The notes beneath the pieces were generated by a model that was not told where the DNA came from, made no database searches, and saw only the letters and a list, made by a program, of their open reading frames with translations. The position numbers and the translations under genes were made by a program. From Leucosporidium creatinivorum (Eukaryota; Basidiomycota; Microbotryomycetes; Leucosporidiales; Leucosporidiaceae), in assembly GCA_001600635.1 (NCBI GenBank), contig BCKL01000012.1:310001-374000 (forward strand): 64,000 nt of DNA, read 5' to 3'. Within the stretch, counting starts at the first letter, position 1, and every line of letters starts with the position of its first letter. This document shows positions 12,860 to 38,760 of the stretch, piece by piece.

Positions 12860-13135
12860 ATCTTTCGCTCGTCTCTCGCTCGCTCGACACTGCTCTGTGT
12901 GCTATAACTCGACTGCTAGGTAGGCTACACCAGCTCTCTGCTCTTCTACAGTTACGTTCGCTCGTGCACTGACCCGCTCCTTGTTGCTCGAACAGGACCC
13001 CGCTCGCTCTGGGAAGCTCTCGCCGTCGCTGCTGGACTACAAAGCAGGAACCTACAGTTTTACTCGCCTGCACACTCCCCCCTCCTACGCCCGCTCGCCC
13101 CTTCGTCGCCCTCGTCGCTTGCTCGCTCGCTCAGG
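12860..13135 (+). promoter_or_regulatory. Family leader A: shared 5'-UTR with intron
   Basis: Upstream of the MAGWNDLP gene at 13136. It has a short first leader exon ending in GACTGCTAG, an intron to CGAACAG (12995) with CTGAC branch site, then leader exon 12996-13135 containing CTGGACTACAAAGCA and the run CCTACGCCCGCTCGCCCC also found in other members. This is the most diverged of the six leaders. Confidence 0.6.
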
Positions 13136-14312
13136 ATGGCCGGCTGGAACGATCTGCCGACCGAGCTCAGGCAGATCATACTGGAAGTCGTGCATGATGA
13201 ACCGGGTGTACGACATGGAACTGCGCGTCGAAACGAGGGATTCCGGACGCTGCTTGCTCTGAGCACGATGGATCGAGAGCTCTACGCCCTCGCCACCCCG
13301 CTCCTCTGGGAGGTGAGCTACTCACCTACACGTCGTCGACTTCCGCACTGACCTCCTCTCTCACCGACAGACTATCACCATCAGCGACCGCTCCATCTCC
13401 CGTCACGTCACTTTCGCTCAAGAGTTCGGTCCTCGCAAGGGGCGGTTCGTTCGCCACCTCGTGCTCTATCACCCTAAGCTTAAGGCCAACAAGCTCGGTC
13501 GTATCTCTGAGACGTATGGAGCATGCCTGGCTTCCGCCCCCAACATCCGAACCCTTCACCTTCACGCCCGATCCGCCTTCGTCGTCGGCATCATCCCCCT
13601 CCTCTCGCCCGAAATGGGGGCGAGCGTGACTTGGTTCGTGCTGCACGAGACAGAGTACGACATCCTCGAACCGTTACACGTCGCCGCCCTCCTCCACGCC
13701 CTCCCACGACTCGTCGACGTGGAGCTCTCGGGAGTCAACGAAACGGACGGCGCGGCGCTGCTCATCAAAGCACTTCGCCAGCTACCCAGCCTGCTGAAGT
13801 TGCAGATGGCTTCCGGTGATGCGTTGGTGCATCGCAGTGTCGGCCAGCCCTGGAAGTCGTCGCTCACGTCGCTCAACCTCGACGGCAGCAATATTATCGA
13901 CTTCGCCGTGCTCCAAGCGCTCCTCTCACACCATTCCAGCACACTCCGCGAGCTCTCCCTGCCATCCTGGCTACGCAAGCAGCACGACTTTCCCTCCTTC
14001 AGTCTGCCGCGCCTGGAGACGCTGCAGCTCTGGACGTCCGAAATCTCGGCTCCCATCCTTCTCGCCTTTTCACAGTCACCACTGCGCAGACTCAGGATCA
14101 AGATGTATTTGACGGACAATGAGATCACGGAAGAGGTCGAGGCGGTACTCGCGACAGTGCAGCAGCATGTCGGAACGCTTCAAGAGGTTCGACTCAGCGC
14201 TCGTGCCTATTACCCGGCGGCCATAGACGAGGAGCATGACATGCTGGATAGGCTGGAAGCGTTGTGCATGAAGGAGAAGATTGTGTACAGAATCGGGTTC
14301 GAGTCGTCGTGA
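13136..14312 (+). CDS. F-box-like/LRR family member A
   Basis: Two exons (13136-13312, 13371-14312), 372 residues. Exon 1 encodes the family N-terminus MAGWNDLPTELRQIILEVV with F-box-like spacing, ending MDRELYALATPLLWE exactly at the intron, the same phase and place as in the other five copies. Exon 2 holds irregular leucine-rich repeats (LASAPNIRTLHLHA, LTSLNLDGSN, LETLQLW) and the family C-terminus LDRLEALCMKEKIVY. Likely an SCF substrate adaptor by family analogy, but no CUL1/SKP1 evidence is available from sequence alone. It is the left member of the first pair. Confidence 0.8.
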
Positions 14313-14659
14313 TACGTACCGCGCTGTACTGCAAGATCCATAGCTCGCTTGAAACGCCGAGTGCCGAGAGGGAGAGGAGAGAGGCATTAGCGTTCATCAC
14401 TCCTATGAGGCTACTCCAAGACTCTTCAATTTGCTTCAGTGTAACCCGTTCAGTCGACCTGCCTCGGAAACCTCTCTGATCCGATCTGGCGATGCTCGGC
14501 GCAAGCGTGAACGCCGAAGGGGTCGCCAGATTGAGCAGGGAGAGCGCAGTGAGCTTGAGCTTGGCCGGAAAGATTCTGTTCTTTCCTTTTCTTCAGTCGA
14601 GCCCTGCTGTAGTGCGGAAGACGACCTTCGCCTGAGCACTTGAGGCGGACGAGTCCAAA

Positions 14660-15005
14660 CGTCGCTTGCCCTCCTGCCACATCTTTGCTCATTCTCGCTT
14701 CGACTCGCTTCGTGCTCTTCTGCGATACTCGTACAGCTGCTAGGTGAGCAATGAACCTCTCTGCGCCACTCCGGCACCTCCCTACCACCCTACAACTCGC
14801 TCCACGTCGCCCCCTTCACCGGCTCATCAAGCTCGAGCGCGCTGACCCTCTTGTTGTTCCTCGCAGCTCGCTCCGGGAAACTCAGTTCGACGCTAAAGGA
14901 CTACAAAGCACCTCCTTGAACCTCTACTCGTCTGCATCCTCCCTCTCCTGCACCCGCCCAGCCTCTCAACATCCTCCAGTCGCTCGCTCGCTGAGCTCGC
15001 TCAGG
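14660..15005 (+). promoter_or_regulatory. Family leader B: shared 5'-UTR with intron
   Basis: Carries CCTGCCACATCTTTGCTC, then ACTCGTACAGCTGCTAG followed by a GTGAGC donor (about 14741), an intron whose interior is also conserved (ACAACTCGCTCCACGTCGCC and GCGCGCTGACC), acceptor CGCAG at 14866, then a leader exon 14867-15005 with GGACTACAAAGCACC. Near-copies precede members C and D. Confidence 0.7.
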
Positions 15006-16200
15006 ATGGCCGGATGGAACGACCTACCGACCGAGCTCAAAGCGTTGGTAGTGGAGCTTGTTAACGAGCAGGGAATAGGTCGAGAGAGTACCCCGGGTTA
15101 CCCTTGGGACGAGTCGCCAGTCCCGTTCTCGGAGGAGCGGCGCGCCTTGTTGGCGCTTAACGGGATGGAACGAGCTCTCTACCTTCTGACTGGCCCAATA
15201 CTGTGGAAGGTGCCCTCGAGTGCTAGCCAGCGCTTGGAATAGAGCTGACTCCTCCTCTTAACAGACCCTCATCCTCGGCACGCGACCCCTCGCTTCGATT
15301 CAAGCATTCGGCGCTGCCGTCAACTCGGAACGCTGCCGCCTCGTTCGCGTCGTCGACTGCCGCCGCGACCGATTCCAGACGGGGCACGTGCTACATGAGC
15401 AGATCGCCCCGGCTTGCGCGCAAGCCCTCCGGTTCACGCCCAACATCCGAGAACTTCGCTTCGACGGGTCGGGCTCGGTCTGGGTCGAGCATCTCCCCTC
15501 CCTCGCCAGGCTCAGGACGACGGTCCGCATTCTCAACCTGAGGACTTGGAGGTCTGGAACTTTGAACGCCTCCCAGACCGCCGCCATCCTCCGCTCCTTC
15601 GACAAGCTCGTGGACGTCTCGCTCCCATCTCACCTCAACGACGAGGACCAGGCTTTGATTCCTCACGTCCAGGGGATGAGTTCCTTACGCAGGCTGAACC
15701 TCGGCTGTCCCATGCATTCAGAGCACGAGCACTACTACCCAATCCTCATGCAACCGTGGAGCGGCAGGCTCACCACCCTCAGCCTCGACATGTGGATCGA
15801 CGAGCCGACCCTCCGAGGACTCCTCAACCAGATCGGCAACACCCTTCAGTTCCTCCATCACGAAAACGCAATGGAGCTCGCCACGCCCGCAGCTCTTGCG
15901 CCATACCACCTCCCCGTTCTCACGCAGCTCGGTCTCGTCTGCGTCTGGGAAGGTGGCCTCGAGCTTTGCTCAGCGTTCTCGAACGCGCCACTCAAGTCGA
16001 TGTACACCTCTCCGGACGAGTACTACGTGGCACCCGATCTCGACGTGCTCTGCGGAGTCGTGAGAGCGCACTCGGCGACGTTGGAGGTCCTCGAGATTCG
16101 CCTTGGAGGGGAGGAGCCGGGCACACTCGATGAAGCGCTGGATAGTCTAGAAGGAACGTGCAAGGATCACGATGTACTACTGGAGGTGGTCCAGGTCTGA
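15006..16200 (+). CDS. F-box-like/LRR family member B
   Basis: Two exons (15006-15209, 15265-16200), 379 residues. The N-terminus MAGWNDLPTELKALVVELV is followed by a longer insert than in A, C, D or E (RESTPGYPWDESPVPFSEE), then RRALLALNGMERALYLLTGPILWK at the intron. The exon-2 body is clearly closest to member F on the opposite strand: both have AAIL near a conserved VDV.LP segment, QPWSG.L..L.L..WIDEPTLR.LL, and a Cys-containing C-terminal helix (EGTCKDHDVLLE). Leucine-rich spacing suggests an RNI-type arc. Substrate unknown. Confidence 0.8.
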
Positions 16201-16458
16201 GCTTGAGACGATGAGGTAAGTCTCGGTGCTCGTCTTCACCCCGACCGAAGCTGAACCGTCTCCCTTTCGTAGTCGTGTGCCGAAGCGGTGCTAGAGTCTG
16301 TGTACAGCAGTCCATTGAGGAGCAGAATAGGCTACTCTTCTTGATCCGGTCCCGGCCTGAAGAGAGCCGAAAGAGCGAAGATGAGAACTCCCTTCCTCCC
16401 TCGCTCCGACTTCAGCGCGAATCTATCCCACCGCCCTTCTATTCCACCTCGCCAAACT

Positions 16459-18529: not shown

Positions 18530-18699
18530 GGTACACGAGCAGGCGAGCAGTGAGAAGCGGGAGAGAGAGTCTCAACGCGACGATTCGAGCTGAAGACGGC
18601 TTGGACTCCTACACTTTTCGGCTTTTCGAGTTCGCTGCAGGCCTACAGCGTTACTGCACACCCGTTACCGCCCTATCGTCCTACAACGCTCACTGGATC

Positions 18700-23600: not shown

Positions 23601-26600
23601 CCGAGACCGTCGGCCGAGCGTTTACTGACCTGTCCCTTGATGCAGTGGCTATCTCATCTCGCTTCCGGATCAGCGTGCCTACATTAGGTGGTTGAGCTAC
23701 GTCAACCCAATGCAGGTGAGATTGACTAAGCTGTGAGCTAGCTTGAGGCGAGCGCTGACTATCGCCCTTCGCAGTACGGCTTCTCGAGTGCGATGATGAA
23801 TGAGATGAAGCGCATCAACTTCACCTGCGACGGCTCTTACATCTTCCCCAATTCGATGGATGGCCAGCTCCCACAATACCCTACGACCTTGGGCGACTTC
23901 CAGAGCTGCACGATCGCAGGTGCACGGGCTGGTTCCAACATCATCTCGGGTCGCGACTTCCTTCTCGCTCGCTACGGCCTGCGCGTTGAGGATCAGGTGG
24001 GTCTTTCGCTCGCCGAGAGCCCTTTGCCTTGAGCTAACCACGATTCGAACAGTGGCGCAACTTCGGCATCATGATCGCCATGTACATTTTCTTCCTCTCG
24101 GTACAGGCGCTCTGCGCCGAGCTCATGCCCGACGGCAACACCGCCCCTCGCATCAACGTCTTCGCCAAGGAGGACAAGGAGCGCCAGCACCTCAACGCCG
24201 AGCTCGAGAAGAACAAGCAGGCCTACCGTCGAGGCGAGATGGAACAGGACCTCTCGGATCTCGTCCAAACCAAGAAGCCCTTCACGTGGAAGAACCTGAC
24301 CTACACCGTCCCCGTTCCCGGAGGTCAGCGCCAACTCCTCGACCACGTCTTCGGCTACGTTCGACCTGGCCAACTCACGGCGCTCATGGGCTCCAGCGGC
24401 GCTGGGAAGACGACCCTTCTCGATGTTTGTTCTTTCCTGCTTCGAGCCTGATCACGCTCTTCGACTGACCTTCGCATCCTCCACAGGTCCTCGCCAACCG
24501 CAAGACCGTCGGAGTCATCGGGGGCGACCGACTTGTCGCTGGTCGAACGCCCGGCAAGGAGTTCCAGCGTGGAACGGCCTACGTTGAGCAGCAAGATGTG
24601 CACGAGTCCACGCAGACCGTTCGCGAGGCTCTGCGCTTCTCGGCCTACCTGCGACAACCCGCCGAGGTCCCCAAGGAGGAGAAGGATCGCTTCGTCGAGG
24701 AAGTGATACAGCTTCTTGAGCTCGAGGACCTCGCCGATGCCATGATCGGTGAACCTGGCTTCGGACTGGATATTGAAGCTCGCAAACGAGTTACGATTGG
24801 TGAGTCTCGACTTCGCCGAGCTCGCCCCCGCTAACCTCTCTTCTCTCTTACCTCGTAGGTGTCGAGCTCGCTTCTAAGCCACAGCTTCTTTTGTTCGCCG
24901 ATGAGCCGACCTCGGGGCTAGATGGACAGTCGGCCTACAACATCGTCCGCATCCTGAAGAAGCTCGCCGCCGCCGGCCAGGCCATCCTCGTCACCATCCA
25001 TCAGCCGACGTCGTTGCTTTTCGAGTCGTTCGACCGCCTGCTTCTGCTCAAGAGTAGAGGCCGCTGCGTGTACTTCAACGAGATCGGCAAGGACTCGCAC
25101 GTCCTCCGAGCATACCTCGCTCGCAACGGCGCGCATTGCCCTCCTACCGCCAACCCTGCCGAGTGTGAGTAGCCTCTCCTATTTTACAACGTGCTGCCCG
25201 ATTCTCTATGCTCGCATAAATGTCCGCTGACCCACTGTACTCCCTTGCAGACATGCTCGAGGCGATCGGCGCTGGCTCTTCTCGTCAAGTTGGCAAGAGG
25301 GATTGGGCAGATCTATGGCTCGAGTCGCCAGAGTTCGAGCAGGTCAAGCGAGAGATCGTTGAACTCGATGAGGAGGGTCTTCGAATGGACGAGTCGACCG
25401 ATCCGAGCTTGCGCAAGGCCTGTGAGTTCGAGCTCGCTGCATTTGCTCGCGTCTAGCGCTGACGCGCCTATGTCGACTCGATAGACGCCACATCCTTCTT
25501 CACTCAACTCCCCATCGTCAGCAAGCGCGCTCTCAAGTCGTTCTGGCGCTCGCCCGACTACGTGAGCTCACCCTGCGCCGAGACGTCGAATCCGCCAGAT
25601 CGGCACTGACACCTTCGCTTTCGGCTTCCTGCAGGGCTTCACCCGTCTCTACAACCATGTCTCGACCGCAGTCTGTCTGGCCATCATCGTGAGCATTTCG
25701 TTCTCTCGCTACTCGGCGCTCGGCCCTCGGCGCTGACGCCGGCCATCTTCAGTACCCCAATCTTGGCAACTCAGTCACGGACCTGCAGTACAAGCTCTAC
25801 GCAATCTTCTACCTCGTCGTCATCCCAGCCTTGATGATGGCGCAGGTTCAGCCCATGTTCTGCGATCAGGTGAGTTCTTCGGCCGAGGATCAGAAGAGGC
25901 CCGAGGAGAGAGCCGAGTTGCTCCCAACTCGGTCAGCGCGCTGACCTGACTACTCACAGCGCGCCATTTTCCACCGCGAGGCTTCGTCCAAGATGTACTC
26001 GTCTCCCGTCTTTGGTCTTGCGCAAGTCATCGCCGAGGTCCCGTATTCGATTCTGTGCTCTATCGTCTTCTTCCTTCTCTTCTGTGGGTCACCGCAAGGA
26101 TCTGCGTCGATTTGAGGCCTAGCTGACACCTCTTCCTTTCCCACCAGACTATCCCATCGGCCTCAACACCGATTCAAATCGCGCCGGATTCGCCTGTTCG
26201 TCCCTTCTCCTCGCTTTTTCCCTCTCACACACTCTCCATATCCTCCATCAAGTGAGAGGATCATGCACGCGCTGACCCGCGCTCTCCCCTCGCAGTCATC
26301 ATGATCTTCCTCCTCGAGATGTTCTCCATCACCATGGGACAGACGATGGCCGCTCTGATGCCTACAGCAAATGCTGCTGAGCTTTGCAACCCCTTCTTAC
26401 TGGTCATTTTCAGCGCTTTCGCCGGCGTTACAATCGTCCCCGACCAGCTGGCCCATTTCTGGAGGAGTTGGCTTCTGCAGGCGAATCCCTTTACCTATTT
26501 GGTCGAAGCAATGATGGTCAACGAAGTCGGAGGAGCTATCATCGAGGTACGTGACTGCAGCTTCCTTCCTCAACTCGAGCTGACCTCGTTCTCAGTGCTC

Positions 26601-27043
26601 GGCGAGCGACCTTCGGCCCTTCACTCCTCCCCCTGGCCAGACATGCCTCGAATGGGCCGGCGACTACGTCTCGCTTGCTGGTGGATACCTCGTCAACGGA
26701 GACGCAACCAGCGACTGCTCCTGTACGTCTTCTCTACGCTCGAGCGAATCGCTCGGCGCTGACCTCCTCCCTTCTAGATTGCCCCTACGCGACGGGCGAC
26801 GAGTTTGCGAGGCAGTACGGCTGGTTATTCGAGAACCGCGGACGAGACCTCGGCATCTTCCTTTGCTACATCATCGTGAGGTGATGCTTCTGCTTCCTGA
26901 GCCGAGCCGAGCTGACCTCGGCGCTCTCCATTTCGACCCTGCCTTTGCTTTCATGCTCCTTCGCATCCTCTCACTCGTAGTTCAACATCATCGTCACGGT
27001 CCTCGCCGCCCGCTTCCTCACCCACCGCTACTCGAAGCGATAG
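20672..27043 (+). CDS. Full-size PDR-type (ABCG) multidrug transporter
   Basis: Twenty-nine short exons join in frame from ATG 20672 to TAG 27043, about 1470 residues, the normal PDR size. Order: N-terminal ABC domain with GRPGSGCTT (Walker A, Cys variant), [11 protein letters not shown] signature and WDNSTRGLDAS; first six-helix membrane domain (about 22.9-24.1 kb); second ABC domain with [12 protein letters not shown], variant signature [12 protein letters not shown] and [13 protein letters not shown]; second membrane domain with the fungal PDR extracellular loop ending in [12 protein letters not shown]. The asymmetric Walker/signature motifs are standard for this family, in which only one ATP site is fully catalytic. 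Such pumps (Pdr5, Snq2, Cdr1) export drugs and lipids at the plasma membrane. The substrate cannot be told from sequence. Splice sites are canonical GT-AG throughout, many with CTGAC branch sites. Confidence 0.93.
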
Positions 27044-27219
27044 ACTGCTCGGCGCAGGCTGGCCACCCCTTTACACGCCTCTTAGAAGGCTCTAATCACT
27101 CACAAGCCACTTCTGTTGTACAATAGACATCTCACAGTCACCCTTAAAGTAGCTCAGAGAGTCACGAGATGCGAGCTGCTGAGAGGTCTTCCCCCGAACT
27201 TCGCCGTTCGCTCCTTGCC

Positions 27220-27543
27220 CTCCTCCCTCATCCTTGTTCTCGCTTCGACTCGCTTGCTGCTCTTCAGCGACACTCGTACAGCTGCTAGGTGAGCTAAAAC
27301 TTCATCTGCACCCCTCTACCACCTCCCGACTCCCCTACAATTCGCTCCACGTCGCCCCCTTCACCAGCTCATCAAGCGCGCTGACCTCTTATTGTTTTGC
27401 AGGGACTCGCTCGCTCTCGGAAGCTCAAGCCATCGCTACTGGACTACAAAGCACCAGCTCGAAGCTCTACTCGCCTACACCCTCCCCTTCCTACGCCCGC
27501 TCGCCCCTTCGTCGCCCTCGCTCGCTCAAACTCGAAGCCCAGG
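27220..27543 (+). promoter_or_regulatory. Family leader C: shared 5'-UTR with intron
   Basis: First leader exon with CACTCGTACAGCTGCTAG, GTGAGC donor, intron with CAATTCGCTCCACGTCGCC and GCGCGCTGACC, acceptor TTTGCAG at 27402, then leader exon 27403-27543. Its core (GGAAGCTCAAGCCATCGCTA, CTGGACTACAAAGCACCAGC) is essentially the same as in leader D. The last leader exon happens to be open in the frame of the gene, but this is not conserved in the other copies. Confidence 0.75.
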
Positions 27544-28738
27544 ATGGCCGGATGGAACGACTTGCCGAACGAGCTCAAGAGGATGGTGGTTGAGATGGTC
27601 GACGCGCGGGGTGAGGTGGCGGGCGGATTTGTAATACTCTCATGTGAAGAATGGGCGACGCTGCTTGCTCTCTCCACGATGGATCGCAAGCTGCACGCTC
27701 TCACTGCGCCGATTATCTGGCAGGTGAGTTAGCTACAACTCCTACCGGGAGACTCAGCTGACCAACATACCATCTTTGCAGACTCTCCCTCTCAGTAACG
27801 CCTCCCTAAATCGTCTTGCCTTCTTCGCTGGCGACATCGGGCCTTTCAAAGGACGACTTGTGCGCCGCCTCATGCTGTACCAGCCCAACACCACCCCAGA
27901 CGACTTTTCAACCGTAGTCGGCGTCTACTCTCAGCTCATGTCGACGGTCCCTGGCCTCAACAGCCTCACCCTCCGATCTCCCTCGGACGTCGTCACGGCT
28001 CTCCTCCCACTTCTGCCGACAAGCCTGGCGCAGACGCTCCAATACCTCGATATGAAGGGTTGGAGTCACTTGGAGTTCATCAGCTCCTCCGTTGCGGCAA
28101 CCACCATCGCCGCCTTTCCAGAGCTTATAGCGCTCCACCTTTCGGACATTCGCCAGGGTGAGGATAAGCAAGCAGCTTCTCTCGCCGTCAATGCGCTTCG
28201 CAGCCTTCAGAAGTTGAAGGTACTTCGCCTTGGGACGGGAGATGGATTCGATAGTCGTTCATCCCTCACCCTTCCCTGGAAATCGTCTCTCCTCGAACTC
28301 GACCTCGGCGACATGGATGGCTCGGATCTCGACGTCTCCACGCTTCGCCTCCTCCTTGAACAGCACGCTTCCACCCTTCAGGATCTCGTGCCACCGTTCT
28401 ATGTGAACGACACGCACTTCCCCACCATCTGCCTTCCTCAACTTCACACGTTGACGCTCTACGTTAACGACGACTCGGCGCCCTACCCCCTCTCCTTCTC
28501 CGCTTCCCCTTTGCGCGACCTGGGCATCGAGATGCTAGGTGAAGAAGGGGAGGTGGAGACTATGGCTCGTAGACTAGCAGAGGCGATCATGCAGCATCGA
28601 GAGACGCTGGCATCGGTGTGTGTGCAGGCTTTTGCCGACGAGGTCGCTCGCGAGAGGGATCAAGAAGCGCTCGACGATTTGGAGGCTCTGTGCGAGAAGA
28701 AGGGTATCAGTTACTACTTTGAGTTGCTGGGGCCGTAA
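27544..28738 (+). CDS. F-box-like/LRR family member C
   Basis: Two exons (27544-27723, 27782-28738), 378 residues. The N-terminus MAGWNDLPNELKRMVVEMVD runs to LALSTMDRKLHALTAPIIWQ at the conserved intron. Exon 2 has leucine-rich repeats (LNSLTLRSPSD, LIALHLSDI, LKVLRLGTG, LLELDLGDMDG, LHTLTLYVN) and the C-terminal family helix LDDLEALCEKKGISYYFELL. By eye the body shares little with member D only 1.7 kb away, although their leaders are nearly identical. Confidence 0.8.
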
Positions 28739-28949
28739 TGAACACCTCGTCCGCGCTGTCCTTGTCGGCTCTGAGAGTGGCTCGGTGAACTGCTCGGCGA
28801 AGGCTGCCCTGCCTTGGTCGGGCGGAGCTCAGCCAACGGTATGGCGAGACCTCTCATAGGGGTTTTCACAGCTTCAGAACCCCCTCGGCTAGCGAAGCAA
28901 GCAATGAGATGGAGCTCGACTCGCTCGAACTCGACTTCGAGTTGCCGCC

Positions 28950-29287
28950 CGCTCCTTGCCCTCCTGCCACATCTTTGCTCGTTCCCGCTTCGACTCGGCC
29001 GCTGCTCTTCGGCGAGACTCGTACAGCTGCTCGGTGAGCTTTGAGTCTCTATGCACCCCTCTACCACCTCCCCTCTCCGCTACAACTCGCTCCACGACGC
29101 CGCCCTTTCACGAGCTCATCAAGCACAGCGCGCTGACCCTCTTGTTGTTCTGCAGGACTCGCTCGCTCTCGGAAGCTCAAGCCATCGCTACTGGACTACA
29201 AAGCACCAGCTTGAAGCTCTACTCGCCTACACCCTCCCCTTCCTACGCCCGCTCATCCTCTCCTCGCCCTCTCCTCGCTAGCTCAGG
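28950..29287 (+). promoter_or_regulatory. Family leader D: shared 5'-UTR with intron
   Basis: CCTCCTGCCACATCTTTGCTC, GACTCGTACAGCTGCTCG with GTGAGC donor, intron containing CTACAACTCGCTCCACGACG and GCGCGCTGACC, acceptor CTGCAG at 29155, then leader exon 29156-29287. The exon matches leader C almost base for base up to CTTCCTACGCCCGCTC, then diverges. Confidence 0.75.
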
Positions 29288-30498
29288 ATGGCTGGATGGA
29301 ACGACTTGCCGACTGAGCTCAAGCAGAAAGTCGTCGCCATGGTAGATACCTACGATCTCGTCAAGCACGGAGAGCATAAACCGCTGTCGTGGGAGCTTGG
29401 AGCATTACTAGCGCTGAACGGCACGAATCGCGAGCTGCAGGCGTTGGCGCGTCCGATCTTGTGGCATGTACGTTTCTTACCAGCCGGCTGCATGCAGAAG
29501 AACGAATATTGACCAGCTCACTGGTGCTGTAACAGACCGTGAAGCTCAAGGGGACCTCTGTCGAGCGGATTCAAATCTTCGCCGAACGAATCGCTCCTTC
29601 AGTAATTCAGCTCATCCACCGACTAGACTCGCACCGCCTGGGAGCCGAGCCGAACTTTGACATTGTACGCGCCGTGACGTCGGCCGCCACCATCGCCAAC
29701 CTAACGGCCAATCTCAAGGCGCTCGGCCTTCGCAGCCAGGAGATGTCACAGTCCGCCCTCTTCCTCGTCGGTCTCCTCAGCTCCGCCATTCGACTTCGTC
29801 TGCGAGAACTCACTTTATCGGCGGGCAAAGAGGACGACCACCAGTATTTCAACGAGTATGGCTTGAGCGCTCCCAGCGGTGCCCTCGTCCTCTCGGCGTT
29901 TCCCAATCTCGTCAAGGTCACGCTGCGCGATGTCGACGATGAGGCCCTGCCGCTCCTCATTCATGCGCTCAAGAGCTTACCTTCCTTGCGCATACTTTAC
30001 ACAAAGTCGGTCGACCTCAACGACCCCTCTCTCACCAACGGCGGCGAGTGGCAGGGCTCGCTCGTGGAGCTCAACCTCCACTATGGCCTCCCTCCTCGCC
30101 TTCTCGCCGAATTTCTCACAACGCACCAGAGCAGTCGTCAGAAGCTAGAGTACACCTTCTTGGCTGACAGAGGGCCTCTTCCCCCATCTCCTACCATCTC
30201 CCTTCCCCATCTCACTTCCCTCGAATATTGGCTTCAGCCCGACACGAGGTGGCTCGCCCTTGCTTTCCCGGACTCGCCTCTCGAACATCTCCATGTCTAC
30301 GTCTCAACCTACACGGAAGAATACTACGAGCTGCTCCAGCTGGCCTTGCAGATGCTTCTGCAACACCGAGGAAGCTTGAAGTCGTTCGAGATTGGCTGCA
30401 AGTACAGGAAGGAGATGGGGACGAGCGTTGACGCTGTCGAGGAGATGGATCAAGTGTGTGATGAGGATGGGATCAAGTTTGATGTAGATTGGTGGTGA
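29288..30498 (+). CDS. F-box-like/LRR family member D
   Basis: Two exons (29288-29467, 29536-30498), 380 residues. MAGWNDLPTELKQKVVAMVD leads to ALLALNGTNRELQALARPILW at the family intron. The second exon carries leucine-rich segments (NLTANLKALGLRS, LRELTLSAG, LVELNLHYG, LTSLEYWLQ) and ends VEEMDQVCDEDGIKFDVDWW. Same architecture as A, B, C and E; function beyond the presumed adaptor role unknown. Confidence 0.8.
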
Positions 30499-31382: not shown

Positions 31383-31769
31383 GTTGGAAGATGGAAGCTT
31401 GGCGGAGGAGAGGTTCGGCGGAGAGGATAGGCGACGTCAGATAAGATGGAAGATATGCGGCGGAGGAATAAGCTGTGACAATGTATAAGGAATGTGGACT
31501 TCATGGGCTCGTAGGGGTTGAGGAAAGAGCTAGCGAGCAGCGAGTGAACGCCGGAACGAGCGCCGAATCGCCGTTTCACCCTCTCGTGCACTCGCCGCTC
31601 CTCGTCCATCGAAAGTCGTACAATACGGGATTATCCGTCTCCGGCCTTTCTATTAGCCTGCCTCGCTTATGCTCACTATTCGTCTATCTCTCCCGTCACC
31701 GCCCCTCCTCCTCTCCCCCGCCTACTAAGGTCCACCCCCCTAACCTACCTCCAGCCGAGCTCAACTTCA
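31383..31769. other. Convergent 3' intergenic region
   Basis: 387 bp between the small plus-strand gene and the HEM4 stop. No coding signal seen. Presumably two 3'-UTRs. Confidence 0.35.
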
Positions 31770-32729
31770 TCATAAGTACTCCAACTCCCTCTGCAACACC
31801 GCCCTCAAGCTCTCCGCCTCTGGCTTCTCCGCTACGAGCACGTCCTCCGCCGAGATGCCCTGCTCGTTGATCAGGTAGTTGGAGGTGACGGGTCCAATGG
31901 CGATGAATCGGAGGTTGAGACGCGGCGCTGAAGAGGTGTAGGAGGAGGTTGGTGAAGGTGCGGTGCTGGATGGCGAATTGGACGGTGAAGTCGGAAGTAG
32001 GGCGAGTCGGCGGAGGTGGGTGAGCGCTGGAAGGGCCGAGGAGGGAGAGAAGAGGGCGACGTAGACTGTCGGTGGCGGCGGAGGTGGTGATGCTGGTATC
32101 GGGGGTTCGGATGGTGCTGATCCGAGGGCGGCGAGAGACTCCAGCGCCTCCTTTAGATCCTCGCCGAACGATCCCACCACCTCGGTCTCATACACCTGCA
32201 CCCTATCCGTCTCTATCCGCCCATCCCACAGGATCTGTTGAATCGTCTCCTTGTTCTTGTCTCCCACGAGATAAAGCAACGGCTTCCTCTCCTCTCCCTC
32301 CTGCTCGGCGCCGAACCGCTCCCTCACGAAATGCGCCAACCGCTCCCCTGTGCCGCTCTCTGCGCCGAGCACTCGTTCATGCGTCGTAGGGCAATCCTCC
32401 AATCCGAGTAGGGCGTTCGAGGTCGCCTTCCCAACGACAAAAAACCGCAGCTGCTCCCATCCTCCCGCTCCTCGTCCTCCCTGCGCCGCGGCGAGTTCCC
32501 AAGCCCTCACTGCGCGAGCAGAGGTGATGATGACTCCGCTGTACCTCTCCGCTGGTGCTCTGTCGTCTGCGAGGATGGTCCCTAGGGTAGAAGGCAGCAG
32601 CTTCGTTTCGAGGACGGGCAGGTGCGTCAAGGAGGTGCAGAGCGGGCGGAGAGCTGTTCCGTAGGAGTCGGAGGAGAGGGGCGACAGCGGCGTGCGGAGG
32701 AGGAGGAGGTGCGCTGGGCTGGGCGCCAT
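31770..32729 (-). CDS. HEM4: Uroporphyrinogen-III synthase
   Basis: Intronless gene of 319 residues. It shows the two-lobed HemD pattern: LLLLRTPLSPLSSDSYG at the start, GVIITSARAVRAWE (the ITSxxAV motif), FFVVGKATSNAL, LLYLVGDKN, VQVYETEVV, a second lobe with VALFSPSSALPAL, and FIAIGPVTSNYL near the end. The enzyme closes hydroxymethylbilane with D-ring inversion in haem biosynthesis, in the cytosol. A Pro/Ser-rich insert (about residues 205-265) makes it a little longer than yeast Hem4. It diverges from the citrate carrier with about 130 bp between start codons. Confidence 0.9.
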   Translation of the reverse strand: MAPSPAHLLLLRTPLSPLSSDSYGTALRPLCTSLTHLPVLETKLLPSTLGTILADDRAPAERYSGVIITSARAVRAWELAAAQGGRGAGGWEQLRFFVVGKATSNALLGLEDCPTTHERVLGAESGTGERLAHFVRERFGAEQEGEERKPLLYLVGDKNKETIQQILWDGRIETDRVQVYETEVVGSFGEDLKEALESLAALGSAPSEPPIPASPPPPPPTVYVALFSPSSALPALTHLRRLALLPTSPSNSPSSTAPSPTSSYTSSAPRLNLRFIAIGPVTSNYLINEQGISAEDVLVAEKPEAESLRAVLQRELEYL

Positions 32730-32859
32730 GTCGAGGTGAGATGTAGGTCGATAGAGCGGGAGGGAAAGCTGCGACGGCTCGGTTCGGAGCTTGGCTTGCG
32801 ACGTCCTTGCAGGTCCTTGCTGCTTGATTTCTCGTGCTGCTTGATTAGGCTACAGAGAA

Positions 32860-35018
32860 ATGGCTACTACACAGCAAAAGGTGAGTCATACTGCTACTAC
32901 GCTACAACTCGCTCGCCCGCTCACTCTCATGCCCAAAACGCGCCTCTCAGCAATCGCCCGCCTTGTCGCTCATTGCAGGAGCTACAGCAGGAGCCGTCGA
33001 GGGTGCTATCACCTACCCTTTCGAGTGTACGTCCAGTCGCTGCTCTGCAGTTGACGCAGCAGCGCAGGCTGACCCGTTCGCTCGCCTCGCTCGCCATATC
33101 CCTCGTCTCCGCTTTCAACCTGCCCCTGATGCTGCGCCGCTGCTGTCCATCCTGTAGTCCTCAAGACCGAGTCCCAATTCGCTCACCGCAAGGACGGCAA
33201 GGTGCGCCCACTCTCGCTGCCGCTCTCACTCCCGGCTCTCGCTGACCTTCCGCCGACGCTCGCGAAACGATCCTATAGCCTCCCGGACTTGTATCCATCA
33301 CCAAAACGACCTACGCTCGCCATGGTATCAAGGGGTTTTACTCTGGAGTCGGGGTCCGTTCTCTCTCGAGCCATTCCGGCGACGACCGAAGCTGATTAGA
33401 GCTGCACCGTTGAACAGGCTCTCGTGGCTGGTAACTCACTCAAGGCTGGTGTGAGGTTCTTCTCGTATGACAAGTTCAAGAAGATGCTGGTGGATCGCGA
33501 TGTAAGTAGTTGGCTTCGGCGCTGTGATTTCGGCGATTTTAACCCTCTCTCCCTCACTCTCACCCCCTTCCCGCCACCAACTTTCTCTCTTCCACATAAT
33601 TCAACTCGCTTCATACTGCTCTCGCCTCTCCCTCCTCGCAACAGGGCAAGCTGTCCGGCCCTCGCTCCCTCCTCGCCGGACTCGGAGCAGGCATGTGCGA
33701 GGCTGTCTTTGCTGTTACGCCAAGCGAGACTATCAAGTGAGTTCATTCTTTCGATTCGGCTTGTGCTGAAGGTCTGGGGGAGGTAGGAGGAGATGAAGAT
33801 GGCGCGGCTCAAGGAGCGCCGAGCCCGCGTCCGGTCAATCGAGGCTCGTGCTACAGAACAGTCGCTCTCGCACACGGCGCTGCATGCTGATCGCCTCTTA
33901 CCGTTCCCCTCGCCCATTCTCGACCTCTCCACCACCGCAGGACCAAGCTCATCGACGACCAAAAGCTCGCGACACCCAAATACCGTGGACTTGTGCACGG
34001 GACACTGTCCATCGTGAAGGAGGAGGGTATCGGAGGTATCTACAGGGGATTGGGACCGGTCGTATGTACAAGTGGCGTCGATGGGGAGGGAGCCGAGAGC
34101 TGACTTCGGCGTGATCATCAGGCGGCTAGGCAAGGTGCCAACTCGGCAGTGAGGTTCACGTCGTACAGCACGCTCAAGGTGGGTCTCTCTCTACCCTTCC
34201 CTATTCGGGTCTCGCTCATTTCTGCCTTCCCTCGCCCAGAACTTCGTCGCTGGCAACGCACGACCAGGAGAGTCCCTCCCAGCTGGCGTGACCTTCGGTA
34301 TCGGAGCTATCGCTGGAGTCATCACCGTGTACACCACTATGCCCTTGGAGTGAGTTGCTGCTATCCGTCTCTCGCTCCCCCACAGCTGACCTTTCTTCCT
34401 CTTCCCCTCCTCTTCCCCTCCTCCCTTCCCGGTCTCTTCTCCGTACGCCCCACTCGCCCGACTTATAGTGTCATAAAAACGCGCATGCAATCCCTCGAAG
34501 CGCGCACAGCGTACCGGAATTCCTTCCATTGCGCGGCGAGGATCTTCAGCGAGGAGGGCGTGACCAAGTTCTGGAGGGGGGTGAGTTGGTGTTTCTCTAT
34601 CGGCTGTTGGTGGCGATGAAAGGCAGTGGATGCGCAGACTGCGAGCGGGCGGGAGGGAAGGCGTTGGAGGCGATATCGAGCTGGGCGGAGGGCGAGCTCG
34701 GCGAGGGGAACGACATCGAGGGACGGCCTCGAGGAGCAGATGCTAGTGCGGTAAAGCAATCGAGTGCTGACCATCATCCTTACCCTTCCTCTCCCTCTTC
34801 TCCCTCTTCTCCCTTCTTCTCTTCGCCTCTTCGCCTTGTCGTCTCGCCGTCTTCTCTCCTCTCTCTACTCGCTCCCTCCCCCGACCTCGTCCCCTCGCCT
34901 CGCTCTTCCCTCCCCTCGACAGGCCACCCCCCGTCTCGCTCGTCTGGTTCTCTCTGGAGGTATCGTCTTCACCGTCTACGAGCAGGTGATGAAGGCGCTC
35001 GGTGGAGTGGGAGTTTGA
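32860..35018 (+). CDS. CTP1: Mitochondrial tricarboxylate (citrate) carrier, SLC25A1/Ctp1 type
   Basis: About nine to ten exons from ATG 32860 (MATTQQK) to TGA 35018. After exon 2 (QSPALSLIAGATAGAVEGAI) come the three mitochondrial-carrier repeats with signatures YPFEFLKTESQ, TPSETIKTKLID and MPLDVIKTRMQSLEA, plus VAGNSLKAGVRFFSYDKFK and ANSAVRFTSY, which are typical of Ctp1. The protein exchanges citrate for malate across the inner mitochondrial membrane and supplies cytosolic acetyl-CoA for lipid synthesis, which suits an oleaginous-yeast-like organism (inference). The PFEFLK reading depends on a split codon across the intron at 33027-33157. Confidence 0.9.
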
Positions 35019-35330
35019 GCGGCGAGATGAGCGCAGGGCGAGTGAAGCAGGAAGGGACGAGAAGGGGAGAGGCGTGTAGTTATAGAGCAGAGGGAATCCC
35101 ATTGATTTGATCACGCAGAGCAGCGACTTGTAGTCATCAGCGAACGACGCGCCGCCGGACCGAGCAAAGCGCGCCGAGCCTCAGTAAGCTTGCTGGGACA
35201 GCTCGGCGGTTCTGAAAGTCTTCTCTGTCCGCTCGCGAGTCTCACTCTCTCAGTGTGCGCTGACACCGAATGCGATACTTCTCACACAAAAGCAAAAAAC
35301 GAGTCGCAGCAGCTCCGAGCCTCCCGCCCG
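35019..35330. other. Convergent 3' intergenic region
   Basis: 312 bp between the carrier stop and the stop of family member E. No gene seen. Confidence 0.35.
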
Positions 35331-36514
35331 TCAAAAGCGGTCCTCTTCCTCCTCATCGCTATCTCCACCCTGCCAATCGATCTTCGCCTCAATACCTTCT
35401 TCCTCGCAGAAGCGGTCAATCTGGCTCATGGGCCTGTCGGCCGCCTCATCGAGTCCGGTGACTTTGATCTCGACCAGCACGTTGCGCAGCGTATCCTTGC
35501 AGGCTTTGACGACCTCGTACGTCTGGATACCGGCGATTCGGACGTCCCTCGTATCCCCTACAAGCGTGACGGTGAGACTTTGCAGTGGGGAGGTGGCGAA
35601 GGCGGAGACGAGGTCGGCGCTCGGGGCAGCGAGGGTGAGCTTGAGCGCTTGTAGATGGGGAAGAAAGAGGGGTGGCATGCCAGTAGTAGGCGTGGGGCTG
35701 AGTAGGGGTAGCTCCAGGCTACTAAGGGTGCTGCTCAGGACGGAGAGCGTGCTGAAGAGGAGGGGAGTCGAAATCCGCTGGTCCAGTTCGAGGTCGGAGA
35801 GAGGACAACTCCAAGCATCCGAGAGCGTAGGGTGATCGAGTCCAGCGACGGAGTTCAGGGCTAGGGCTTCTAACGACGAGTTTTGGAGTGTCGATATGAG
35901 GGACGCGGAGCCATCTGCCGAGACGTTGGAAAGGAGAAGAGCCTTGACTTGAGGGAAGTGGCCGAGGATCATGGCTGCCGAGAAACCATCAAGGCTTCCA
36001 GGGAGCTCGCTTCCCGAGAGGTAGACGGCGTATATCCTTTGCCTCCAAGGCTCTGGAAGCAGGCCGACTACGGCCGCCGCGAACGCCGAGCATTGGCTCA
36101 TGTAAAAGTGTTTGACGCTGGTCGCAAGCGCGAAAGCTTTGGCACAGGTTTGAGCCGCCTTCTGTACGTCCTCAAGGCTTTCCAACTCGCCTTCGACGTC
36201 AATGCGCTCGAGATATCGAGCTCGGCGAGGGGCGATGGAAGAAGCGAGGAACTCGAGCTCGTCGCTGGTGCGTTTACTGAGCTTGAACTTGAGGGACTGC
36301 GAGGTTTAGATTAGCTAGCGCAAGGTGCTCCCGGCTTTCTAAGATCACGCACCTGCCAGAGAATGGGGCCACTTAGAGTGTAGAGCTCGCGGCTGGTTGA
36401 GCTCAACGCGATGAACGTCTGACGCTCCTGCGAGTCGGCGGATTCTTCATCTTCCTCCACGGCAGACACGATGCGCTCCTTGACCTCGGTCGGCATGTCG
36501 TTCCATCCAGCCAT
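35331..36514 (-). CDS. F-box-like/LRR family member E
   Basis: Two exons on the minus strand (36514-36353, 36296-35331), 375 residues. MAGWNDMPTEVKERIVSAVE runs to FIALSSTSRELYTLSGPILWQ at the family intron, with a shorter insert than in B or F. The exon-2 body has leucine-rich motifs (VKALLLSNVS, LEALALNSVAG, LSDLELDQ, LQALKLTL, LQSLTVTL) and ends with the family helix IDRFCEEEGIEAKIDW followed by an acidic GGDSDEEEED tail unique to this copy. Confidence 0.8.
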
Positions 36515-36810
36515 CGTGAGCTTCGGACCAGCAACGAGGGTGACGAAAAGGCGAGGGGGCGTAGGAGAGGGGGAGTGTAGTCGAGTAGAGCTTCGAGCTG
36601 GTGCTTTGTAATCCAGTAGCGATGGCTTGAGCTTCCAAAGCGAGCGAGTCCTGCACGACGAACAACAAGCAGAGGTCAGCGCTCGAGCTTTGATGAGCTG
36701 ATGAAAGGCAGCGACGGGAGCGAGTTGTAGGGTAACAGGGAGGTGTCGGAGTAGTAGATATGAAGCTGTAGCTCACCTAGCAGCTGTACGAGTATCGCCG
36801 AAGAGCAGCA
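36515..36810 (-). promoter_or_regulatory. Family leader E: shared 5'-UTR with intron
   Basis: Read on the minus strand: CTCGTACAGCTGCTAG, GTGAGC donor at 36776, intron to TGCAG (36651), then leader exon 36650-36515 with GAAGCTCAAGCCATCGCTAC, GATTACAAAGCACCAGC and TCGAAGCTCTACTCG, close to leaders C and D. Confidence 0.7.
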
Positions 36811-37211
36811 GACGAGTCGAAACTGAGAACGAGCAAGATGAGGAGGAGACCAAGAGACGTCGGACTCGGCAAGTCGAGGTCGAGCGATCCGTACCCCCAC
36901 TTTCTCTTCGCTTCGCCGGCCTCTGAGGCTACTCCCACTCGTTTGAGAGGTTTCCCCACTCGTTCAACTCCTCTCAGCAACACGCGAAGCAGGGAGCCAA
37001 CGCCGAGCACAAGACCGAGCGACTTCGCGAATGCGAGATGAAAGTCGGAGCGGAATCGTTTATCCACAAAGTTCAAACTATGGACGTAAGCCGCCTCTTC
37101 TCTGGTACACAAGCTTCCGAATCATCGGTCGAGGCGCCTCTGACTGTCGAGAGAAGAAGGATCAGCCTCGATGCGAATCCAACACCGAGCGAGGGCACCT
37201 ACCTCACATCA
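36811..37211. other. Intergenic region between family members E and F
   Basis: About 400 bp containing the distal promoter of E and the 3' flank of F, both on the minus strand. No gene seen. Confidence 0.35.
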
Positions 37212-38414
37212 CTACATCTTCCACCTGCTAATCAAAAACAGCTCCACGCTCCTGCTCTTGCACAGCACTCTCAACGTCTCCACCGCCTCGTCCAGCTCGC
37301 CTTCCCGCTCCTCGTCGCCGAGGTAAACCTCGAAAGCCTTCAACGTCGACGAGTGCTGCTCCACGACCTCCCTCAGCACGTCAAAGTCGGCGACTCGGAG
37401 GCTCTCGCCAGACCAGACTGTAATCTCCTTGAGCCGCGCCGTGGAGAACGCCGAGAAGAGGGCCAATCCGCCATCCCACACGCTGCGAAACTCAAATCTC
37501 TCCAGGAGGGGGAGGTTGTAAGGACGGAGCGGGGTCGAGTCGAGGAAATCCCCAAGATCCCCGTACCTGAGGTCTACCAGAGTGGCTCCGACCTGGTGCA
37601 GAAGCGCTCGAAGTGTCGGCTCGTCGATCCATACCTGAAGGTCGAGAGACTTGAGGCTGCCGCTCCAGGGTTGAGCGAGGACTGGGACGTAGCGAAGGTG
37701 ATCCGAGGTAATCGAAGAGCTGAACTCCAATCGCTGTAAGGAGCTGATGGATTGGAGATGCGGAAGGACGAGTTGATCCGGGTCATCGAGAATGGGCAAA
37801 GCGACGTCCACCAACCCAAACAGCGAAGGATGGCAGCGACCTCTGGGGCACTGAGATCTGATTCGAAGGACGCCGTGAGGGTGAGAGTTCGGATTCGACT
37901 TCTCAGCTTGGTCAGGGAGGGTAGGAGGTCGACCCAGCCGGTGGCCGAGCCAAGACCGCCCAAGCGGAGCTCTTCGACGTTCGGCGTGCGCTCGAGTGCA
38001 CGAGCGCATACTTCGGCAATCTCCTCGACCTTTGCGCTCGCCCCTGGGAAGATGTGGTGGCGGCAGTCGACGACGCGGACAAAGCGACAGCGATTCGAGC
38101 TGACAGCATCGCCGAAAGCCTGGATGGACGCCGCGGATCGGGCTCCCAGCAGGAGGGACTGTCGGCGAGAAGTTAATCCTGCTTTGGGCTACAGTGCATC
38201 CAAGACTCACCTCCCACAGCATCGGTCCCGTCAATGCGTAAAGGGTTCGATCCGTCTCGCTCAGAGCCAGCACGGCGCGACGCTCTTCGGAGGTGGAGGA
38301 GGGCGCAGGATCTAAAGGATGACGGGGCGTAGCTTCCCTCGCTCGACCTTCTTCAGAAACGAGCTCCACTACGCGCGTCTTGAGCTCGGTCGGCAAGTCG
38401 TTCCATCCGGCCAT
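37212..38414 (-). CDS. F-box-like/LRR family member F, carrying a frame disruption
   Basis: Exon 1 (38414-38211) encodes MAGWNDLPTELKTRVVELV to LSETDRTLYALTGPMLWE. Splicing at the family position (52-nt intron, acceptor at 38159) gives an exon 2 homologous to member B (SLLLGARSAASIQAFGDAV, ILRCLG). Near 37815-37822 the frame then slips by one base relative to B, and the rest of the homology (LVDVALPILDDPDQ, QPWSGSLKSLDLQVWIDEP to the end) continues in another frame. Oddly, the unspliced message is open from 38414 to 37212 (400 codons) and ends in the correct C-terminal frame, because the 52-nt intron shifts the frame the other way. So the gene may be newly broken, may use intron retention, or may contain a sequencing error. 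Confidence 0.65.
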   Translation of the reverse strand: MAGWNDLPTELKTRVVELVSEEGRAREATPRHPLDPAPSSTSEERRAVLALSETDRTLYALTGPMLWEVSLGCTVAQSRINFSPTVPPAGSPIRGVHPGFRRCCQLESLSLCPRRRLPPPHLPRGERKGRGDCRSMRSCTRAHAERRRAPLGRSWLGHRLGRPPTLPDQAEKSNPNSHPHGVLRIRSQCPRGRCHPSLFGLVDVALPILDDPDQLVLPHLQSISSLQRLEFSSSITSDHLRYVPVLAQPWSGSLKSLDLQVWIDEPTLRALLHQVGATLVDLRYGDLGDFLDSTPLRPYNLPLLERFEFRSVWDGGLALFSAFSTARLKEITVWSGESLRVADFDVLREVVEQHSSTLKAFEVYLGDEEREGELDEAVETLRVLCKSRSVELFLISRWKM

Positions 38415-38760
38415 CCTGAGCTTCGAGCGAGCGAGCGACGAGGGGCGACGAAGGGGCGAGCGGGCGTAGGAGGGGAAAGATGTAGGTGGATAAAGTTTCG
38501 AGCTGGTGTTTTGTAGTCCAGTAGCGCTGGCGAAAGCTTCGGAGATCGAGCGAATCCTGCACGACGAACAACAAGAGGGTCCGCGCGCTTGAGCTTAATG
38601 AGCTGGTGAAGGGGGCGACGTGGAGCGAGTTGTCGGGCGGCAGAGTGGCGCAGGAGTGGTGCAGAGTAGATTTTAGCTCACCGATCAGCTGCACGAGTAT
38701 CGCAGAGAACAGTTGAGTCGAAGCGAGAACGAGCAAAGATGAGGAAGAAGGGCAAGGAGC
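38415..38760 (-). promoter_or_regulatory. Family leader F: shared 5'-UTR with intron
   Basis: Minus strand: CTCGTGCAGCTGATCG, GTGAGC donor at 38681, intron to TGCAG (38557), leader exon 38556-38415 with GCTACTGGACTACAAAACAC, CAGCTCGAAACTTTAT and CTCCTACGCCCGCTCGCC. More diverged than C, D and E but clearly the same element. Confidence 0.65.

Follow-up and report, generated by a model that had tools for sequence, protein, structure and literature searches.

Six genes of one layout were found in the window (the whole stretch of DNA analysed, 64 kb), with start codons at 13136, 15006, 27544 and 29288 on the forward strand and at 36514 and 38414 on the reverse strand, and are referred to as M1 to M6 in that order. 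These positions and strands agree with a preliminary description of the same DNA, as do the three tandem pairs, which had been put at about 1.7–1.9 kb and were measured from ATG to ATG at 1870, 1744 and 1900 nt. The leaders (exon A, intron, exon B), the coding regions and a neighbouring ORF are located as follows.

11262–12494 (+), neighbour ORF: single-exon, F-box-like, 410 aa, without the leader
12844–13135 (+), M1 leader: exon A 12844–12919, intron 12920–12995, exon B 12996–13135
13136–14312 (+), M1 coding region: exon 1 13136–13312, intron 13313–13370, exon 2 13371–14312; 372 aa
14665–15005 (+), M2 leader: exon A 14665–14743, intron 14744–14866, exon B 14867–15005
15006–16200 (+), M2 coding region: exon 1 15006–15209, intron 15210–15264, exon 2 15265–16200; 379 aa
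27214–27543 (+), M3 leader: exon A 27214–27288, intron 27289–27402, exon B 27403–27543
27544–28738 (+), M3 coding region: exon 1 27544–27723, intron 27724–27781, exon 2 27782–28738; 378 aa
28955–29287 (+), M4 leader: exon A 28955–29033, intron 29034–29155, exon B 29156–29287
29288–30498 (+), M4 coding region: exon 1 29288–29467, intron 29468–29535, exon 2 29536–30498; 380 aa
36515–36854 (−), M5 leader: exon A 36854–36777, intron 36776–36651, exon B 36650–36515
35331–36514 (−), M5 coding region: exon 1 36514–36353, intron 36352–36297, exon 2 36296–35331; 375 aa
38415–38756 (−), M6 leader: exon A 38756–38682, intron 38681–38557, exon B 38556–38415
37212–38414 (−), M6 coding region: exon 1 38414–38211, intron 38210–38159, exon 2 38158–37212; frameshift near 37820

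The intact proteins (M1–M5) are 372–380 residues long, and M6 is probably a pseudogene or the product of a sequencing error, the two halves on either side of its frameshift matching M2 in different frames. The coding intron is in phase 0 in all six genes and follows LW(E/K/Q/H), as had been described, except in M3, where it follows IWQ. The bodies of M1–M5 could be aligned along their full length at an exon 2 pairwise identity of just 20–34%, and the C-terminal cysteine noted earlier was recovered as one residue invariant across M1–M5 and the neighbour ORF. Sequence comparison thereby supports M1–M6 as paralogs of one duplicated LRR family with strongly diverged bodies, the neighbour ORF being at most a distant relative. 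In the body tree, M2 groups with M6 (support 100/99, the closest bodies) and M1 with M3 (91/95, under the star threshold of the tool), so that tandem neighbours are not each other's closest relatives.

An AlphaFold2 model of M3 exon 2, built from 5 sequences, alternated strand and helix at a pLDDT of 87, and exon 2 is predicted to form an LRR horseshoe, giving the C-terminal LRR solenoid that characterizes F-box-LRR proteins. Foldseek with this model returned 34 matches at E ≤ 0.001 (TM-scores 0.27–0.58 by query length), including COI1, D3, Skp2, FBXL17, NLRs and RanGAP; the named PDB matches at this threshold were mostly LRR proteins, and the Pfam LRR signal was sub-threshold and present in M1 alone. 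At the N-terminus, the F-box-like model PF12937 scored 13.5 and 13.6 bits in M4 and M5 and 12.6 bits in the neighbour ORF, against a cut-off of 24.3, and ranked best among 24,736 Pfam models in M4 (E 0.061), third in M5 (E 0.058), and as the sole match in the neighbour ORF (E 0.12). No F-box reached the Pfam gathering cut-off in the six proteins scanned, M1–M3 gave no F-box match, and none came up when PDB sequences were searched with profiles.

From these matches an F-box at the N-terminus is plausible, and the likeliest job of the proteins would be that of substrate receptors in SCF-type ubiquitin ligases, in which the F-box would bind Skp1 and the concave side of the LRR would pick the target. 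That they are instead LRR proteins working outside SCF ligases, with an N-terminus that resembles an F-box merely by coincidence or no longer binds Skp1, is unlikely. Such a role would accord with the sub-threshold scores, with unrelated families at similar E-values (DUF7730 and FliG_M score as well as or better than the F-box-like model in M5), with the many non-ligase LRR proteins matched by the exon 2 model, and with the low confidence of the exon 1 model (pLDDT 59), but that same model places helices at 9–26, 35–46 and 48–59 in a three-helix layout, and M4, M5 and the neighbour ORF align to one F-box-like model over nearly its full length (model positions 1–2 to 44–46 of 47, starting at residue 2–4). 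For a single named model out of 24,736, such a match has a chance of a few in a million, by arithmetic from the scan.

The preliminary description had read the family as a recognition family with a diversifying LRR body and had called for dN/dS per exon. For M2–M6, the best-aligned pair, dN/dS was 0.35 over the whole coding region and 0.41 in exon 2, and in the other ten pairs tested exon 2 gave nominal values of 0.45–0.78 at a dS of 1.17–2.12, near saturation; these values show no gene-wide positive selection. The predicted concave-face positions were the most variable of five classes (mean pairwise identity 0.103 vs 0.156 for exposed helix, p 0.04 by permutation), and in M1–M3 the concave strand positions were the sole class with pN above pS (0.62 vs 0.50, from small numbers), which was not the case in M2–M6. 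The bodies thus vary most at the predicted recognition face, with weak support, and of the earlier reading the duplicated LRR family and the high divergence of its bodies hold. We give an even chance to the reading that the divergence reflects old duplications and loosely constrained F-box/LRR bodies, without diversifying selection or a role in conflict; the low ratios of M2–M6, the near-saturated synonymous sites of the other pairs and the already broken state of one copy in six (M6) suit it, but the variability of the concave strand positions and their excess of pN in M1–M3 do not.

The intron-containing leader of about 300 bp ascribed to all six members was recovered in each, at 292–342 nt with a GT..AG intron of 76–126 nt. 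Mean identity over the 15 pairs was 73.7% in exon A, 74.3% in the leader intron and 76.5% in exon B, against 37–40% for shuffled controls. A profile of the leader matched the 64-kb window in exactly six places, those of M1–M6 (weakest E 3.8e-78; next match E 0.54), and exact leader DNA patterns gave 0 matches in two contig collections (viruses, prokaryotes). The leader as a coding extension was rejected, each of the three frames having a stop in at least one of M1–M5, the genes read, and so was the leader as a structured RNA (covariation term +1.09, unfavourable; two-sided change in 6 of 48 pairs); no Rfam match was found in the window at gathering scores.

Constancy extends only a short way into the coding region. 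Amino-acid identity was 83% in the first 13 codons, 42% in the remaining exon 1 and 25% in exon 2, with DNA identities of 86% and 52% for the two parts of exon 1. Four-fold third bases were identical at 48 of 66 sites in the first 13 codons, 60 of 181 in the remaining exon 1 and 283 of 625 in exon 2, silent sites past codon 13 being as diverged as in the body. The earlier contrast of a constant exon 1 with a variable exon 2 therefore stands for exon 2, but exon 1 is constant only to about codon 13. Past that codon, the exon 1 protein is less diverged than that of exon 2. Exon shuffling was ruled out as the source of the border, since the border lies inside exon 1 and not at the intron.

The history of the leader was compared with that of the body. 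On the same topology, the scaled body tree lost 83 log units in its fit to the leaders compared with freely estimated branch lengths (lnL −1723.2 vs −1639.9), the stem of M2+M6 measuring 1.22 in the body and 0.026 in the leader. The leader tree is star-like, with inner branches near zero; it is compatible with the topology of the body tree (M2+M6 p-AU 0.39), the branch lengths alone being rejected. The M2–M6 leader distance stood at a ratio of 1.01 to the distance of these leaders to M3–M5 (bootstrap interval 0.84–1.20), and M2–M6 leaders were further apart than M3–M4 leaders (difference 0.036–0.215, 99% bootstrap interval). Singletons made up 89 of 148 polymorphic columns in the leader (60%), compared with 133 of 789 in exon 2, 18 of 90 in the remaining exon 1, 6 of 33 in the coding intron and 30 of 216 upstream; 4% is expected under saturation. 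The leader segment has a younger shared ancestry than its flanks, as concerted evolution requires, and within the window the bodies are far more diverged than the leaders, the opposite of the slower-evolving bodies that the preliminary description had set as grounds against its reading.

The leader is best explained by ectopic gene conversion confined to the 5′ end, the chief alternative being constraint on a leader with a regulatory function. In the latter, purifying selection would preserve the leader as a regulatory unit common to the copies, which would exchange little or no sequence, the candidates being a promoter-proximal element, intron-mediated enhancement and the translation start context; we regard it as possible, on the unlikely side. 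As such a unit might, the six spliced leaders contain 0 ATGs; 2000 single-base shuffles averaged 9.2 and never had fewer than 1. Without M1, homology boundaries are nearly equal in most pairs, which is also expected from a functional element. In M2–M6, the motif GCTCGGCG occurs on the same strand 154–175 nt ahead of the leader (in M1, on the opposite strand and 137 nt upstream), the chance of a same-strand occurrence at 140–180 nt from a random point being 0.019, so that its position relative to the leader looks conserved and hints at shared promoter architecture. As a family-private promoter motif GCTCGGCG was rejected, being over-represented throughout the window (59 occurrences vs 7.9 expected). 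The PHI mosaic test was negative on the leader (p 0.63–0.96 at four window sizes; p 0.04–0.26 at three window sizes on the body as control), which counts against conversion and is also in keeping with constraint, and 5′ introns alter promoter output in Rhodotorula toruloides according to PMC5124236, a precedent if the source yeast is related.

Against constraint, the leader intron is conserved like the leader exons, and constrained leaders simulated on the body tree (25 rate regimes × 300 runs, with site-specific base preferences left out of the model) reproduced the star-like pattern, with its distance ratio, and the 60% singletons jointly in 0 of 7,500 cases; the observed excess of 0.12 of the M2–M6 over the M3–M4 leader distance was reached by no run in the 25 regimes. 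Equal site preferences predict equal numbers of private changes per copy, but these were unequal (38, 16, 3, 3, 12 and 17; p 8e-11), also without M1 (23, 6, 7, 25 and 25; p 1.7e-4). Sequence exchange thus explains the similarity of the leaders better than slow evolution alone.

Several patterns within the leader bear on the number of exchanges. The adjacent M3 and M4 differ at 1 of 98 sites over the initial 100 columns of exon B and at 45 of 262 in the remaining leader (p 4e-6, for a tract picked after seeing the data), and M2 and M6 differ at 31 of 92 sites over the same columns. Of the 38 changes private to M1, 28 fall in exon A or the intron, and of the 16 private to M2, 14 fall in exon B or the codons (p 5e-5, post hoc); over all six copies, placement gave p 0.002 with small cells, and the SSUF runs test on the leader gave p 0.0005 (five copies) and 0.0007 (six). 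A 5′ cassette of leader and 13 codons, transferred in one or a few copying events to already diverged genes of the family and with no continuing exchange, would also yield a young 5′ end common to all six, the star-like tree, the sharp border within exon 1 and the negative PHI result. It is nevertheless quite improbable: the near-identical M3–M4 tract and the segments specific to single copies speak for more than a single event, and the genes keep the same coding intron and alignable intact bodies, as ordinary paralogs whose 5′ ends would be homologous anyway.

We slightly favour the whole reading in which M1–M6 are paralogous SCF-type receptors whose 5′ ends have been homogenised by ectopic gene conversion, with the bodies spared. 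After old duplications the bodies would have drifted far apart, while ectopic conversion overwrote a 5′ segment between copies, from about the putative transcript start, across the leader intron and as far as codon 13; sequence upstream and downstream would have escaped, and the overwritten segment would therefore have a younger common ancestry than the remaining gene. The leader and its intron probably double as a common 5′ expression unit. An extension of this gene-conversion reading, a fungal recognition system of constant head and variable body, strikes us as decidedly improbable. In it, conversion would keep one shared expression head (leader, intron and first 13 codons) equivalent in all members of a dispersed array, and diversification of the LRR bodies would take place at the recognition face; every body would then be joined to one common regulatory head, and expression might be coordinated or one at a time. 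Should the conversion reading be right, exchange homogenises an intron and other non-coding sequence between paralogs while coding bodies diverge, the opposite of what is expected of a gene family; the locus would be a compact natural case of a recognition family with common control but diverging binding parts, and would bear on whether expanded fungal F-box families resemble immune or conflict receptor families.

No account of this family was found among the matches listed in the open-licence literature, judged mostly by title or opening of the abstract, which is not proof of its being unpublished. In the order of its parts, an F-box-like N-terminus followed by an LRR horseshoe, the family resembles the FBXL receptors of SCF ligases (Skp2, Fbxl3, COI1), and its LRR part matched Skp2, COI1, D3 and FBXL17 in Foldseek; it differs in its sub-threshold F-box, in the low identity of its intact exon 2 sequences, and in a conserved intron-bearing leader, which is absent from the FBXL definition. 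The tandem F-box families of Caenorhabditis, as PMC8665587 presents them, are likewise clustered duplicates with a conserved N-terminus, where purifying selection acts on about the first 50 residues, and a more divergent substrate part, whereas M1–M6 are constant over just 13 codons plus a non-coding leader and intron, and their leader has its own history. Intron-containing promoters of R. toruloides likewise carry an intron near the gene start in the expression unit, and there 5′ introns strongly change promoter output (PMC5124236), but those promoters belong to separate genes such as ACC1, FAS1 and LDP1 and have measured activity. Plant NLR families such as RPP8 are likewise LRR recognition genes with intergenic gene conversion between paralogs, and polymorphism shared between RPP8 paralogs is densest around the LRR, according to PMC6771003; in M1–M6, by contrast, it is the 5′ end that carries the exchange signal, with the LRR spared.

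The start codons of the six paralogs, M1–M6, were confirmed at 13136, 15006, 27544 and 29288 (plus strand) and 36514 and 38414 (minus strand), and the coding intron separating exon 1 from exon 2 has GT..AG borders and, as claimed in the preliminary description, a constant phase, which is 0. The leader of about 300 bp with its own intron was also recovered (292, 341, 330, 333, 340 and 342 nt 5' of the ATG in M1–M6), and in all six was divisible into exon A (75–79 nt), an intron (76–126 nt) and exon B (132–142 nt). Mean identity over 15 pairs was 73.7% in exon A, 74.3% in the leader intron, 76.5% in exon B and 86.1% in the first 39 coding nt, falling 3' of codon 13 to 51.7% in the rest of exon 1, 46.8% in the coding intron and 43.2% in exon 2; the flanks gave 40.4% (300 nt upstream) and 37.1% (150 nt downstream), and shuffled controls 33–40%. 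Protein identity was 82.6% for codons 1–13, 42.4% for the rest of exon 1 and 24.9% for exon 2 (five intact members), and four-fold third-base identity was 48/66, 60/181 and 283/625, respectively, counted over non-independent pairs with M6 used in exon 2 only in its pair with M2. Since all three identities drop after codon 13, the constant part is a 13-codon head and not, as had been proposed, exon 1 as a whole; the strong divergence proposed for exon 2 was borne out by its DNA and protein identities.

No ATG was present in the six spliced leaders (2000 shuffles: mean 9.2, minimum 1), and no open frame was common to the five members translated, which would fit a 5' UTR; the leader-bearing genes are presumably transcribed and spliced. 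A leader profile search of the window returned the six copies and no others, and the family is real and well bounded. The 300 nt 5' of the leader were near chance identity in most pairs. In M2–M6 the octamer GCTCGGCG has the same orientation as the gene and lies 154–175 nt 5' of the leader; in M1 it lies 137 nt 5' of the leader on the opposite strand.

Copies of GCTCGGCG before the leaders
12707, minus strand, octamer
14494, plus strand, octamer
27047, plus strand, octamer
28792, plus strand, octamer
37008, minus strand, octamer
38931, minus strand, octamer

The chance of a same-strand copy 140–180 nt upstream of a random point is 0.019. The window holds 59 copies on both strands, where 7.9 would be expected and 100 dinucleotide shuffles gave at most 15. 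Because it is frequent throughout the window, GCTCGGCG does not mark this family in particular and is proposed as a candidate for a shared promoter word.

The window has a GC content of 59% and compact, intron-bearing genes, and the neighbours of the family are recognisably eukaryotic; the general impression is of a basidiomycete yeast resembling Rhodotorula. A Pfam scan of ten neighbouring ORFs gave matches above cut-off for six, a sub-threshold MCM10 match for one, and no match for three.

Neighbouring ORFs with Pfam matches above cut-off
4773–6182, Kelch protein
26301–26762, ABC transporter membrane part
31770–32729, HemD
34149–34619, mitochondrial carrier
44274–44780, eIF2D
47989–48876, Vps35

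An inverted repeat (59241–60034 / 62875–63681, ~800 bp, 85% identity) is perhaps one gene present twice in opposite orientation; the one ORF tested that overlaps it (59871–60380) had no Pfam match. Direct repeats were seen at 51726–51955 / 54221–54452 (232 bp, 96% identity, 2.5 kb spacing) and, within an ORF rich in charged residues, at 42118–42166 / 42232–42280 (49 bp, 84%).

The proteins of the family are likely F-box-like/LRR receptors, a reading graded no higher because F-box matches are sub-threshold, the exon 1 model is poor and PDB profile matches are weak. In a Pfam scan at a loose threshold, where all F-box-like matches lay under the curated cut-off, F-box-like was the best match of M4 (E 0.061), the third of M5 after two unrelated families (E 0.058), and the sole match of the ORF adjoining M1 (11262–12494; E 0.12); M1 matched an LRR model weakly, along with two unrelated models, and no match was returned for M2 or M3. 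The adjoining F-box-like ORF is a single exon without leader, and its C-terminal, Cys-containing stretch resembles that of the family; a family exon 2 profile built without this ORF matched it at E 0.085 only. Exon 2 of M3, modelled from an alignment with four paralogs, was predicted as alternating strands and helices (mean pLDDT 87), with 34 PDB matches at E ≤ 0.001, titled mostly as known LRR proteins (named matches include COI1, D3, Skp2, FBXL17 and yeast Rad7, also NLRs and RanGAP), the top match being to a chain without a name in an axonemal microtubule structure; TM-scores were modest (0.27–0.58 by query length). Exon 1 modelled alone was poor (pLDDT 59, three helices), and whole-protein sequence-profile searches of PDB returned weak LRR matches only (E 0.98 or worse) and no F-box. 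A ligase function of the family is presumed.

Positions were sorted into classes by combining the predicted secondary structure with a rule based on hydrophobicity. Mean pairwise identity was 0.103 for outward strand, 0.156 for exposed helix (permutation p 0.04) and 0.40 for inward strand positions. In the M1–M3 comparison pN exceeded pS in the outward strand class alone (0.62, 0.50); in M2–M6 it did not (0.47, 0.72), and single-pair Fisher tests were not significant (0.27, 0.14). FBXL proteins bind preferentially on the concave face (PMC7729025). These values hint at, but do not prove, diversifying selection. A conflict role may be supposed. M6 (38414, minus strand) aligned with M2 in two frames, 112 residues at 53% in the first and 196 residues at 46% in the second, so M6 is broken by a frameshift near 37820; read onward, the first frame stops after 262 residues. 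A 400-residue ORF at M6 has the intron within it and probably does not represent the gene's product.

The body tree joined M2 with M6 (support 100/99) and M1 with M3 (91/95, not starred), and placed M4 and M5 without resolution; the physical pairs M1–M2, M3–M4 and M6–M5 are therefore not sister pairs, although the rejection of M3+M4 is no more than marginal (p-AU 0.06). M2–M6 exon 2 gave dN 0.45 and dS 1.1 (ratio 0.41), and the other ten pairs tested were near saturation (dS 1.17 to 2.12). For the leader, lnL was −1639.9 under the body topology with free lengths, −1639.7 under the best leader tree and, far worse, −1723.2 under the body's branch proportions, the M2–M6 stem being 1.22 for the body and 0.026 for the leader. 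Pairwise distances between leaders were 0.26 for M2–M6, 0.14 for M3–M4, 0.19 for M3–M6 and 0.24 for M2–M3. The leader alignment has 148 gap-free polymorphic columns, 89 of them private to one gene, versus 133/789 in exon 2, 18/90 in the rest of exon 1, 6/33 in the coding intron and 30/216 upstream. The 5' head has its own, younger history than the bodies, and this, above the variable exon 2, is the family's most interesting feature. The upstream 300 nt were alike only in M2–M6 (54%), which agrees with the body tree, and M4–M5 (51%), which has no resolved counterpart there (other 13 pairs 32–45%).

Simulations asked whether a leader under selective constraint, evolving on the body tree, can give the observed ratio and singleton fraction (5 gamma shapes × 5 invariant-site fractions × 300 runs; target mean identity 0.77, observed 0.764; 6 of the 25 regimes could not reach the target and were run at their limit). 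None of 7,500 runs gave both features, nor did any with the ratio relaxed to 0.84. These simulations lacked site-specific preferred bases, and such preferences could also be a source of many singletons. They are opposed by the uneven numbers of private changes among the copies (38, 16, 3, 3, 12 and 17 in M1–M6), the different places of these changes (M1, 28/38 in exon A and intron; M2, 14/16 in exon B and codons), and an M3–M4 stretch in which 1 of 98 columns differs, versus 45/262 elsewhere in the leader, this stretch and the M1/M2 contrast having been picked after inspection. A runs test on leader polymorphic sites was significant (p 0.0005), which may be due in part to rate variation along the leader. 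The PHI test was not significant (p 0.63 to 0.96; six sequences, 55 informative sites), an outcome that either speaks against recent mosaic exchange or stems from low power; with columns and pairs non-independent, all p values are rough. The best explanation is ectopic gene conversion, in which an old F-box-like/LRR receptor family would have had its 5' end overwritten, perhaps with the aid of selection favouring a shared unit of expression; the expression behaviour of the family is presumed.

Homogenisation confined to an intron-bearing 5' leader and a dozen codons was not described among the literature matches listed. The F-box domain is depleted, not expanded, in Microbotryum versus other basidiomycetes, in a survey including Microbotryomycetes (PMC4469406), and 5' introns alter promoter output in R. 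toruloides (PMC5124236). Two further papers describe Caenorhabditis F-box genes as tandemly expanded, with a conserved N-terminus and a faster substrate part (PMC8665587), and plant RPP8 LRR paralogs as exchanging sequence, with shared polymorphism densest around the LRR (PMC6771003).
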